From positions 44,033 through 108,032 of the forward strand of contig NZ_BLXY01000001.1 of assembly GCF_014193585.1 (NCBI RefSeq): DNA of 64,000 bases, read 5' to 3'. The notes below the pieces were generated by a model that had not been told where the DNA came from, ran no database searches, and worked only from the letters and a program-made list of their open reading frames with translations. Below, one piece after another: positions 41,077 through 44,830 of the stretch; within the stretch, counting starts at the first letter, position 1; each line of letters starts with the position of its first letter. The position numbers and the translations under genes were made by a program. This DNA is from Geomonas paludis. Its GTDB lineage: Bacteria > Desulfobacterota > Desulfuromonadia > Geobacterales > Geobacteraceae.

Positions 41077-42414
41077 TCAGACCAGCACCCGGAACCTCGC
41101 GCCGCGGTCAAAGTTATCTGCGGTGAGCGAACCTGCCATGTTCCTCTCTATGATCATCTTGGCCATGTACAGCCCGATCCCGGTGGCCTGTGGCCCCCTG
41201 GTGGTGAAGTAGGGATCGAAGATCTTGTCGACAACTTCCGCCGGGATTCCCCCCGCGTTGTCCACGAGCGTCACCAGGGAGCGTCCATCCTCCTCCCCAA
41301 CCTCGATCCTGATGGTCGGGTGCTCTACCTTCCTGGCCACGAACGCGTCCTTGGCGTTGATCAGTATGTTGAGCAGAACCTGCGAGTAGTCCCCGGGATA
41401 ACCCTCGATCATGGGATCCGCCAAGGAGGAAACGGCTATATTGATGCTGACTTCGCGCAGGCTGGAATCGACGAGGGAAACGGTTTTTTGCACCGCCTCC
41501 AGCACACGGAAGCGGACCTTCTCCTGCCCCGGGCTGAAGAAGTTCCTGAAATTGTCGATGGTGCGGGACATCTGGGTGATGGCTTCCATCATCCTGCGCA
41601 CCTTGTCGTCCAGGTACCCCTCATCGAGCTCACCCAGGCGGAAGGTCATGGGGAGGTCCTGGGCCAGCAGGGCAAGCACGTTGAGCGGCTGGCGCCACTG
41701 GTGCGCGATGTTGCTGATCATTTCCCCCATTGCCGCCAAGCGCCCCTGCTGGATCAGCATCTGGTCCATCTGCCGCAACTGCTCCACGGTGCGCAGACGC
41801 TCCTCGCTTTCCCGCTTCAAATCCCGATGGGCCCGGCACAACGCCTCGTGTTTCTCGTGGATCCTGTTTTCCGCCAGGGTCCTGGTGCGGATCTCGGAGC
41901 GGAGATGGATCTCGGTCATAACCGAAGCCGCCAGGTCCTCGATCGCCGACACCTGCGCCGCAGTCCATTGCCTGGGCTTGGCATCGATGACACAGAAGGA
42001 GCCGAGGATGTAGCCGTCGGCGGTGGCGAGCGGGATACCGAGGTACGCGATCACGTGCAGGTCCCTGATGGCGGGGTTGTCCTTGAAGAACGGGTGGAGC
42101 CGGGCGTCCTCGATGAGCAGCGGCTGCTTCGCGATGCGGTTGTATTGACAGAAGGAGTGGCTGAGAGGGGTTTCCCGCCGGGACTGCCACGGCTCGGGCA
42201 GCCCGATGCAGCTCTTGAAGAACTGCCGGTCCGCGTCCACCAGGGTGACCAGCGAGACCGGCGCATCGACGAACTGGGTCGCCAGCCGGGTCAGGCGATC
42301 GAAGGCTTCTTCGGCCGGGGTATCGAGCAGGGCCACGGCGCGCAGCGCGGCAAGTCGGGTGGGATCGGCCACGTGGGCCGAGATGTCACTGAAGTCGTAA
42401 TGGTTCATTTGCAT
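41077..42414 (-). CDS. Soluble GAF-domain histidine kinase
   Basis: 445 aa with no membrane segments. The N-terminal GAF domain (about 15-170) has the common VSLVTLVDADRQFFKS and LSHSFCQY blocks. A coiled coil leads to HisKA with His near residue 238 (GEMISNIAHQWRQPLN) and a HATPase (NILINAKDAF, VDNAGGIP, GIGLYMAKMIIE). The C-terminus is complete. It is a cytoplasmic orphan kinase separated from the preceding kinase by a terminator. The ligand is unknown. Confidence 0.9.
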   Translation of the reverse strand: MQMNHYDFSDISAHVADPTRLAALRAVALLDTPAEEAFDRLTRLATQFVDAPVSLVTLVDADRQFFKSCIGLPEPWQSRRETPLSHSFCQYNRIAKQPLLIEDARLHPFFKDNPAIRDLHVIAYLGIPLATADGYILGSFCVIDAKPRQWTAAQVSAIEDLAASVMTEIHLRSEIRTRTLAENRIHEKHEALCRAHRDLKRESEERLRTVEQLRQMDQMLIQQGRLAAMGEMISNIAHQWRQPLNVLALLAQDLPMTFRLGELDEGYLDDKVRRMMEAITQMSRTIDNFRNFFSPGQEKVRFRVLEAVQKTVSLVDSSLREVSINIAVSSLADPMIEGYPGDYSQVLLNILINAKDAFVARKVEHPTIRIEVGEEDGRSLVTLVDNAGGIPAEVVDKIFDPYFTTRGPQATGIGLYMAKMIIERNMAGSLTADNFDRGARFRVLV

Positions 42415-42572
42415 TCCGTGGTAGTGGCCAGCAGCACAGCTGGAAAAGTATCAGGATTTTCTCGCGTTTCAAGCGACGGCGCACCTCCGGCAGGAGAATC
42501 GGGGCGGCGCTCCTGTGCCCCCCGCCGGGAGGTGCAGACACGGAGATGAAATTTTCCTCTCGGTTTTAGCTA

Positions 42573-42602
42573 TTTACACCGTTCCCGCAAATCAAATATG
42601 AT
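42573..42602 (+). promoter_or_regulatory. Likely sigma-70 promoter for the coiled-coil/selenoprotein genes
   Basis: TTTACA (42573-42578), 18-bp spacer, TATGAT (42597-42602). It lies about 50 bp before the 42652 start codon. No other promoter is obvious before the selenoprotein gene, so they may share it. Confidence 0.5.
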
Positions 42603-42651
42603 GTGGTGGTTTGCTGGATAAACCGCACCATTTGAACAAGCAGGAACAGGC

Positions 42652-43005
42652 ATGGCCAAGATCATTTCGTTGGAGAAGACGCGGCAGGCGATCAAAAAGA
42701 GAAGGGAGGCGGAGGCGCTATTGCGCGAAACCGAGGATGACATCACCGCCATCCTCAACGATTACTCCCTGACACCGGCCAACCGGCGCTGGAAGCTGGA
42801 GAACATGCTGATGGACGTCGATGAGCAGCTGGACCAGTACCGCAGGGAGCTCGAGGCCGCGGAGCGGAAGTTGAACGCGCTGGTGGCCAGCGCCGAAGGC
42901 GAGATCGTCCGTGCCTACGGCGAATTCGAGGCCAAGGTGCGCGGCATGACCATCGCGGTCAGGAAGCTCACCGGCTCCCCGCACGCCGATCCCATCACCG
43001 AATAG
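42652..43005 (+). CDS. Coiled-coil protein of unknown function
   Basis: 117 aa, almost entirely charged helix (SLEKTRQAIKKRREAEALLRETEDDITAILNDY, EQLDQYRRELEAAERKLNALVASAEGEIVRAYGEFEAKVRG). It has no signal peptide, cysteines or membrane segment. I recognise no family. It lies 124 bp upstream of the selenoprotein gene on the same strand; a shared transcript is possible. A function cannot be inferred. Confidence 0.7.
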   Translation: MAKIISLEKTRQAIKKRREAEALLRETEDDITAILNDYSLTPANRRWKLENMLMDVDEQLDQYRRELEAAERKLNALVASAEGEIVRAYGEFEAKVRGMTIAVRKLTGSPHADPITE

Positions 43006-43128
43006 CAAGCGGCGCCCCCTAACGGCGCCCTCCCCCGCCACCACAGCAGGTTAAGGTTTCCAGAGGCGCGCGTTTGTGCTAGTTATGTAGACGCTCGCCA
43101 GACAGCTCCCCCTGCAAGGAGGTGGACC

Positions 43129-43383
43129 ATGAAAATCCGCAAGAAGATTTTGGATTTCGAGTATGAGGAGGTTCTCGAGGTCAAGTACCGGGAACTGATC
43201 CGTGTCGCCTGCGCCGTGGCCGTCGGTTGTCCCGACTGACTGAAGAAGCACTTCGCGGTCGCGAAGGAAGCAGGCGCCACCGAAGCGGAACTCAACGAGG
43301 CCATGGCCTACGGCATCATCGCGCCGTCGGGACGGGCCAAGAACTTCGTGCGCAGCCAGGAAGAAATCTTAAAAGAACTGTAG
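43129..43383 (+). CDS. AhpD/CMD-like selenoprotein (UGA read as selenocysteine)
   Basis: 84 residues with an in-frame TGA at 43237-43239 (codon 37), so ordinary ORF calling misses it. The reading frame runs from ATG 43129, after AAGGAGG, to TAG 43381. The sequence around the UGA, VGCPDULKKHFAVAKEAGATEAELNEAM, matches the AhpD/carboxymuconolactone decarboxylase fold, whose redox motif is CxxCxxxH. Here the second Cys is replaced by Sec (CPDU) and the His is kept. A hairpin begins 11 nt after the UGA (43251-43266, stem CTTCGC/GCGAAG, loop GGTC), the layout of a bacterial SECIS. It is probably a small peroxidase or thiol-redox protein. AhpD-like selenoproteins are known in this group. Confidence 0.82.
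43251..43266 (+). promoter_or_regulatory. SECIS-like hairpin downstream of the UGA codon
   Basis: CTTCGC (43251-43256), loop GGTC (43257-43260), GCGAAG (43261-43266). There are eleven nucleotides between the UGA and the stem, as in E. coli fdhF. A G-containing apical loop is the SelB contact. The element lies inside the coding sequence. Confidence 0.7.
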
Positions 43384-43387
43384 TGCT

Positions 43388-43467
43388 AACAGGGATGAAG
43401 GGGATACAGGGGATAAGGCGGGGTTGTCGCTTGGTATTATCCCTTTAATCCCCTTCATCCCTGTTTG
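43388..43467. repeat. Long inverted repeat between selenoprotein and MATE genes
   Basis: AACAGGGATGAAGGGGAT (43388-43405) recurs as its reverse complement at the right end of the interval (about 43450-43467). Near-matching inner arms (AGGGGATAA/TTATCCCT) lie inside. The loop is about 25 nt. It could act as a terminator-like barrier or be a dispersed repeat. Confidence 0.8.
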
Positions 43468-43486
43468 TCTAAAGGTTGTCCATCTC

Positions 43487-44830
43487 TTGAAACGTCTCAC
43501 CTTCAACAAATCCACCAAGCGCGTCTCCATCCGTCGTAACGTCGCGGCGCTGTCGATGCCGGTGCTCCTTTCCTCGCTGTTCCAGCGCCTGGTCTCCATC
43601 GTGGACATCTTCATGGTGGGGGGGCTGGGGGCCGCGGCGATCGCCGCCACCGGCCTCGGCCAACTCCTCATCTTCGTCACCATGACGGTATTCTGGGGCT
43701 TCTCCACCGGCGCCAACGTAGTCATCGCCCATCTCTGGGGCGCCGGCCGGCGCCTGGAAGCGCGCAGGACCGCCTTCGCCTCGCTCCTCTTCTGCGCGCT
43801 CCTCGCCGTGGCGGCCACCCTGCTGGGAATGGGCTTCGGGAGGGACATCGCGGTCTTTCTCGGGGCGAGCCCGGACGTGCTCGCCTACGCCTCGGACTAC
43901 ATCCGCCTGGTCTTCCTGTATTTCGGCTTCACCGCCGGGCTCAACATCCTCTCCGCCATCATGCAGGGGACCGGCAACACCCGCACCCCGATGGAAGGGA
44001 TCCTGCTGGTGAACGTCCTGCACGTCGCCATCGCCTATCCCCTGATCTACGGCTACCTGGGTTTCCCGCGCTACGGCGTGCTCGGGGCGGCCTACGCCAT
44101 CAACTTCTCCGAGGCCGCCGGCTTCAGCTACCTGCTGATCCAGGCGCTCAGGAAGGGATACCTGAAGATCGGCCGCCCCGACCTGGCGCTATTGAAGAAG
44201 GTGATCGGCATCGGCTATCCCGTGGCGCTGGAGCGCGTGGCCCAGCAGTCGGGCCAGCTCTTCTACTCGAAGTTCATCATCGGTTTCGGCACCGCCGCCT
44301 ACGCCGCCCACCAGATCGGCCTCTCCATCGAATCGCTCTCTTTCATGCCTGGCGCCGGGATGGGGATCGCCGCGGCGACGCTCATGGGGCAGTCGATCGG
44401 CGCCAGGAAGCTCCGGCGCGCCCACATGAGCCACACGGAGGCCCTCCGGCTGGCGGTGCTGGTCATGGGGGCCATGGCCCTGCTCTTCTTCTTCCTGCCG
44501 CACCACCTGATCGCCCTGTTCACCCACGACCCGCAGGTGATCGAGAAGGGGAGCGTCTTCCTGCGGCTGGTCGCCTTCGCCCAGGTGCCGCTGGCGATCT
44601 CCTTCGTCTACGCCGGCAGCCTGCGCGGCACCGGCGACACCCACTACGTCTTCCTGGTCACCCTGGTGTCCATGTGGGGCATCCGGGTGCTCCTCTCCTA
44701 CATCGCCGCCGTCCCGCTGCAGCTTTCCCTTTACGCCGTCTGGGGCGTCTTCCTGATCGACTGGTTCTTCCGCGCCGGCGCCTTCTGGTGGCGCTACCAG
44801 CGTCGCGACCTGCACCAGGTCATCATCTGA
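43487..44830 (+). CDS. MATE family antiporter (second copy)
   Basis: About 447 aa, twelve membrane segments, two MatE domains (NVAALSMPVLLSSLFQRLVSIVDIFMVGGLG; ALERVAQQSGQLFYSKFIIGFG). It is distinct from the MATE protein at 10747. The start is read as TTG 43487, 11 nt after AAAGG. The frame is open further left, but that part lies within an inverted repeat and is unlikely to be coding. The downstream methyltransferase gene starts 2 bp after its stop. Substrate unknown. Confidence 0.85.
   Translation: MKRLTFNKSTKRVSIRRNVAALSMPVLLSSLFQRLVSIVDIFMVGGLGAAAIAATGLGQLLIFVTMTVFWGFSTGANVVIAHLWGAGRRLEARRTAFASLLFCALLAVAATLLGMGFGRDIAVFLGASPDVLAYASDYIRLVFLYFGFTAGLNILSAIMQGTGNTRTPMEGILLVNVLHVAIAYPLIYGYLGFPRYGVLGAAYAINFSEAAGFSYLLIQALRKGYLKIGRPDLALLKKVIGIGYPVALERVAQQSGQLFYSKFIIGFGTAAYAAHQIGLSIESLSFMPGAGMGIAAATLMGQSIGARKLRRAHMSHTEALRLAVLVMGAMALLFFFLPHHLIALFTHDPQVIEKGSVFLRLVAFAQVPLAISFVYAGSLRGTGDTHYVFLVTLVSMWGIRVLLSYIAAVPLQLSLYAVWGVFLIDWFFRAGAFWWRYQRRDLHQVII

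Follow-up and report, generated by a model that had tools for sequence, protein, structure and literature searches.

The window analysed here is a stretch of 64,000 nucleotides from Geomonas paludis, whose genome (5,114,951 bases) is 99.99% complete. One selenoprotein-type gene lies on the forward strand at positions 43129-43383 and consists of 84 codons, the first of them ATG, followed by a TAG stop codon (43381-43383). A single in-frame TGA occupies codon 37 (43237-43239, forward strand) in the motif CPDU, where U denotes selenocysteine (Sec). A strong Shine-Dalgarno sequence, AAGGAGGT (43116-43123, forward strand), is located 5 nt upstream of the ATG. The preliminary description of this DNA had proposed an 84-codon frame with one internal TGA and a perfect ribosome site; the ribosome site was found, and the coordinates, the ATG, the TGA at codon 37 and the TAG were all exact. 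The list of open reading frames of at least 60 residues (translation table 11) contains none that spans the TGA in the frame of the gene. Among the matches listed, the nearest named relatives belong to six Geomonas species, with 95-96% protein identity.

Next on the forward strand comes a gene for an efflux transporter of the MATE family (43424-44830). The open reading frame was listed with a TTG start, the match to TIGR00797 (250 bits) covered 43487-44827, and the true start may lie downstream of the listed TTG. The gene is possibly co-transcribed with the selenoprotein gene. The two are separated by a palindromic sequence (43384-43472), distinct from the SECIS element, that has 66 matching rows in the genome, itself included, many of the places appearing on both strands as a palindrome. 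It was considered as part of the selenoprotein gene and rejected as a dispersed repeat. An Rfam search of 42000-44500 gave sub-threshold matches only, including two microRNA models on the palindrome (43384-43470). Upstream, also on the forward strand, a gene for a coiled-coil-like protein of 117 residues (42652-43005) matched no Pfam or NCBIfam family over the cut-off. This neighbour had been thought a noteworthy trait, yet all 15 loci in which it was found upstream belong to the own genus, which is represented by 19 genomes; the 84 remaining loci, two of them with less than 600 upstream bases, yielded no copy. Since it occurs in one genus only, it is not a feature of the family, and it was rejected as a functional partner.

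Family membership and conservation of the Sec codon

The read-through product matched the CMD domain PF02627 (1.3e-13, 51.2 bits, cut-off 23) and NF041047, the NCBIfam equivalog model designated "GSU3128 family (seleno)protein" (161.6 bits, 3.4e-48, cut-off 110). The latter alignment paired residues 1-78 of the 84 in the protein with positions 1-79 of the 84 in the model and spanned the TGA. The two matches show that the frame is not a product of chance; they establish it as a gene and give it a name. The AhpD/CMD core model TIGR00778 was also matched over its cut-off (37.5 bits, cut-off 27.8). The score against the AhpD subfamily model TIGR00777 was 14.6 bits, below the cut-off of 191.95, so the protein is AhpD-like rather than AhpD.

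The order to which the organism belongs was searched in 141 genomes, of which 91, its own included, had a match over the NF041047 cut-off, and all 91 of these genes have exactly one internal TGA, at the U of the CxxU motif. The other 50 genomes gave no match over the cut-off; in one of them a gene of the family begins but enters a run of Ns before codon 37. That gene gave the best row below the cut-off in the order (53.2 bits, query residues 1-32; the next scored 40.4 bits) and is uninformative on codon 37, since its sequence becomes Ns after the match to residue 32. In a sample of 395 genomes from the phylum, 16 had a match over the cut-off (9 of them already in the order set) and each of the 16 genes has one TGA, as does each of five relatives below the cut-off (E <= 1e-15; 65.6-71.1 bits). 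The 91 genes of the order, 7 further genes of the class and these five (L066-L070) were combined into a set of 103, all with different coding sequences; the five were left out of counts of members over the cut-off (98) and kept in counts of the full set.

The codon aligned with codon 37 is TGA in all 103 genes, the window's included, and never TAA or TAG. When contigs of named genomes were scanned with a pattern, the best 80 of 119 relatives gave the same result (TGA in 80/80); this group overlaps the 103-gene set. Four positions, Glu22, Cys34, codon 37 and His41, show no variation (103/103). Among the 98 members over the cut-off, 29 positions are invariant, 19 of them after the TGA; homology extends on both sides of the in-frame UGA, as expected of a bacterial selenoprotein. 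The residue preceding the Sec codon varies, being Asp36 in the window gene and Thr in 70 of the 103. The preliminary description had called for Cys or Sec at codon 37 in aligned homologues, and the Sec codon was the form found throughout. A Cys form was absent among the 98 members over the cut-off. The search for Cys forms covered the order at E <= 0.001, among the matches listed, and the phylum sample at E <= 1e-15, and weaker Cys relatives may exist elsewhere because of the threshold used for the phylum.

The five relatives below the cut-off are stand-alone CMD selenoproteins from other families of the phylum, with the motifs CSHU, CAHU or CPTU and 65.6-71.1 bits against the cut-off of 110. 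Four of them (L066, L067, L069 and L070) were scanned, and the generic AhpD core domain was the only NCBIfam model whose cut-off was reached; the five are possibly an unmodelled sister subfamily. Below the cut-off, the order has at least nine more weak matches of CMD/AhpD type, each containing an internal TGA (genomes G009, G010, G021, G024, G030, G049, G055, G101 and G125), and these are perhaps other AhpD-like selenoproteins of the same order.

Decoding of the UGA

The genes selA, selB, selC and selD, whose presence the preliminary description had proposed checking, are all found in the genome. Each protein model gave a single match over its cut-off: SelA with 603.8 bits (cut-off 267.9), SelB with 394.6 bits (cut-off 242.25) and SelD with 364.8 bits (cut-off 125). 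A single tRNA-Sec was found (74.9 bits, gathering threshold 47), with the anticodon TCA according to ARAGORN. The selD gene of this genome (L051, G000:C16:38667-39584) likewise has a TGA within its reading frame.

Bacterial SECIS elements typically have a G early in the loop. An "ideal SECIS hairpin" 11 nt after the UGA had been claimed for this gene, and the sequence CUUCGC[GGUC]GCGAAG (43251-43266, forward strand; loop in brackets; CTTCGC-GGTC-GCGAAG in the DNA) begins exactly 11 nt (43240-43250) past the TGA. The position, the 6-bp stem and the G in the loop were confirmed, but the folding was less than ideal: when the 54 nt from the UGA were folded alone, the hairpin was not the minimum-energy structure, and the stretch showed no greater stability than shuffled sequences (z +0.74; 155 of 200 shuffles were at least as stable). 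The 30 nt from +12 fold into the hairpin, with -9.0 kcal/mol. Synonymous recoding produced a hairpin of the same kind in 1678 of 20000 trials (8.4%), a rate presumably raised by the encoded peptide HFAVAK, and at that rate a hairpin in one gene is weak evidence. The single sequence thus lends weak support to a SECIS element, whereas comparison of the sequences argues strongly for one, and the weight lies in the conservation among relatives.

All six stem pairs are retained in the same place, with G-U allowed, in 99 of the 103 genes, the window's own included, and a loop starting with GG stands at the canonical place in 88 (GGUC in the window gene). The best 80 of the 119 named relatives have all six pairs at the canonical place in 79 cases and four pairs in one. 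In three close relatives (L038-L040), the first pair has changed from C-G to U-A through two synonymous substitutions (CAC to CAT and AAG to AAA), a compensatory change that probably arose once. The codons of the hairpin are nearly frozen: Phe42 is TTC in 99/99, Ala43 GCG in 88/103, Val44 GTC in 68/69, Ala45 GCG in 99/103 and Lys46 AAG in 100/103. Outside the hairpin, GCG is used for Ala50 in 5/103 and Ala60 in 11/103, the highest values in other Ala columns being 44/98 (Ala31) and 35/74 (Ala53), and Phe73 is TTC in 46/102.

A conserved downstream hairpin with a G early in the loop is present across the relatives, and one genus of 11 members (g27) deviates. None of its 11 members over the cut-off has a canonical loop starting with GG, and the four genes of the whole set with a broken canonical stem (L083, L085, L093 and L101) all belong to it. 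In these four, RNAfold of the 30 nt from +12 gave a new perfect hairpin, of 6 bp in three genes and 8 bp in L101, with the loop GGCA three bases (one codon) downstream of the loop position in the window gene. The other seven members keep the stem with the loops CCUG, CUUG or UCUG. Folding of four of these stem-keepers gave the canonical hairpin for L034 and another preferred structure for L041, L050 and L078, which have a CCUG or UCUG loop.

That the TGA is an ordinary stop, ending a 36-residue peptide with the downstream half decayed or separate, would agree with the lack of a listed open reading frame across it and with the 54-nt fold, but is scarcely credible given the 19 of 29 invariant positions that follow it, a codon that is TGA in every gene and never TAA or TAG, and the presence of selA, selB, selD and tRNA-Sec. 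The in-frame TGA very probably encodes Sec in a small redox protein, as judged from these sequence comparisons. SelB carrying Sec-tRNA would be recruited by the hairpin just 3' of UGA 37, resulting in the insertion of Sec.

Fold, relay residues and probable function

AlphaFold2, run with 35 family sequences and with Sec entered as Cys, predicted two short N-terminal strands followed by four helices (mean pLDDT 95.4). A sequence search of the PDB returned 3bey (2.9e-8), RclX (7y4r, 2.9e-7) and five further CMD/AhpD entries. The first solved structures matched by Foldseek were also of the CMD family, 3bey with TMq 0.68-0.70 and RclX 7y4r with TMq 0.72-0.73, at weak E-values of about 1e-3 to 1e-2. 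The product would be a small, mostly helical, stand-alone AhpD/CMD core of 84 residues.

In the available portion of PMC3141380, the proton relay of Mycobacterium tuberculosis AhpD is given as Glu118, Cys130, His132, Cys133 and His137 and that of PA0269 as Glu36, Cys48, Tyr50, Cys51 and His55, and the position of His132 is described as not absolutely conserved. The 12-3-4 spacing of Glu22, Cys34, Sec37 and His41 is that of the AhpD relay in this source, Sec occupying the position of Cys133, while the fifth relay residue, His132 in M. tuberculosis AhpD, is Asp36 in the window protein. The suggestion that the TGA replaces the second redox Cys, with a His four residues on, was borne out; His41 is invariant in all 103 genes. 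The window protein resembles M. tuberculosis AhpD (TIGR00777; 1gu9, 1knc) in its Glu-Cys-xx-Cys/Sec-His spacing and two-helix core but differs from it in being about half as long, in carrying Sec instead of Cys133, in lacking a counterpart of His132 and in scoring 14.6 bits against the required 191.95.

By analogy with AhpD, Glu22, Cys34-x-x-Sec37 and His41 would be arranged as a proton relay, and Cys34 and Sec37 would most likely cycle between the reduced thiol/selenol and a selenenylsulfide. A Cys-Sec redox center is the best-supported mechanism. The function is most likely that of a cytosolic AhpD-type thiol/selenol oxidoreductase, which may act as a weak peroxidase or as an adaptor that reduces a peroxiredoxin-like partner. 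Counted against a redox assignment is the varied function of CMD-family proteins, and no peroxide-related partner was recognised among the neighbour clusters listed, most of which are unannotated.

A further possibility is that Sec is inserted but that the role is not peroxide-related, being structural, transport-coupled or of another CMD type, for example serving the MATE transporter. Of the 98 loci over the cut-off, 39 have a MATE gene downstream in the same orientation, assigned by TIGR00797 in the window and by BLAST clustering with the window copy elsewhere. In the own family 29 of 33 loci have it, as do 10 of 10 loci in a second family of the order. Seven loci, spread over three genera, have a gap of 0-3 nt between the gene and the most upstream MATE start, which makes co-transcription likely there. 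However, it was found in 0 of 48 loci of a third family (2 of them searched over less than 1000 downstream bases) and 0 of 7 other class members (searched over 965-1494 bases), even though both groups conserve the protein together with its relay residues; MATE-less loci with short downstream sequence include L024 (462 bases), L122 (466), L093 (860) and L063 (965). A role unrelated to peroxide is accordingly considered quite improbable. As one explanation, a GSU3128-family selenoprotein with a SECIS-decoded UGA 37 and an AhpD-like Cys34/Sec37 redox role is given a probability of about 0.9.

Relation to known selenoproteins

The family, its CxxU motif and its lineage were already known, as the available portions of three papers indicate. 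A "distant AhpD homolog" was listed in 2006 among 25 known bacterial selenoprotein families, with two selenoprotein sequences, from Geobacter sulfurreducens and G. uraniumreducens, and one inferred Cys-to-Sec event (PMC1794560). A 2026 review equates the "Distant alkylhydroperoxidase (AhpD) homolog" with NF041047 and the motif CxxU (PMC13188914). A predicted selenoprotein of G. sulfurreducens resembling 4-carboxymuconolactone decarboxylase was reported in 2005 (PMC1242214), and we infer that it belongs to the GSU3128 family. The literature search returned no paper on GSU3128 by name or on Geomonas selenoproteins, and the portions of the literature available to it gave no experimental function for the family.

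The AhpD-like selenoprotein with CPDU and a SECIS element that had been proposed is supported by the Sec codon of its homologues and by the presence of selA, selB, selC and selD, but its novelty is not: the gene, though real, is a member, over the cut-off, of an existing equivalog family and nothing unusual among related bacteria. Nothing essential sets it apart from the GSU3128 family, whose named members come from the same bacterial group and share the CxxU motif and the length; the window gene has CPDU, where Thr precedes the Sec codon in most relatives, and the coiled-coil gene upstream. The small size, once regarded as unusual, is normal, the NF041047 model itself having 84 positions. The CMD part also matches two models of CMD selenoproteins with a fused methyltransferase, NF041537 (ArsM_AhpD_UU, 33.3 bits) and NF045649 (MduS, 32.7 bits). 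These models have 345 and 338 positions and cut-offs of 510 and 380 bits, respectively, whereas the window protein is stand-alone and far below both. NF041537 is listed with CxxU in the available text of PMC13188914.

It is possible, if rather doubtful, that the family never reverts to Cys, that its selenol carries out a reaction for which Cys cannot substitute, that it is coupled to a MATE exporter in part of the lineage and that in some members of one genus the SECIS element has migrated, a new hairpin with its loop one codon downstream having replaced the old one while the UGA stayed fixed.

The analysis illustrates that a real selenoprotein gene can be found by reading raw sequence alone. 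The useful additions to what was known of the family are 1) the strict conservation of the Sec codon, 2) the compensatory and shifted variants of the SECIS hairpin and 3) the MATE gene linkage seen in two of the order's families; together they make simple tests feasible in cultured Geobacter and Geomonas.
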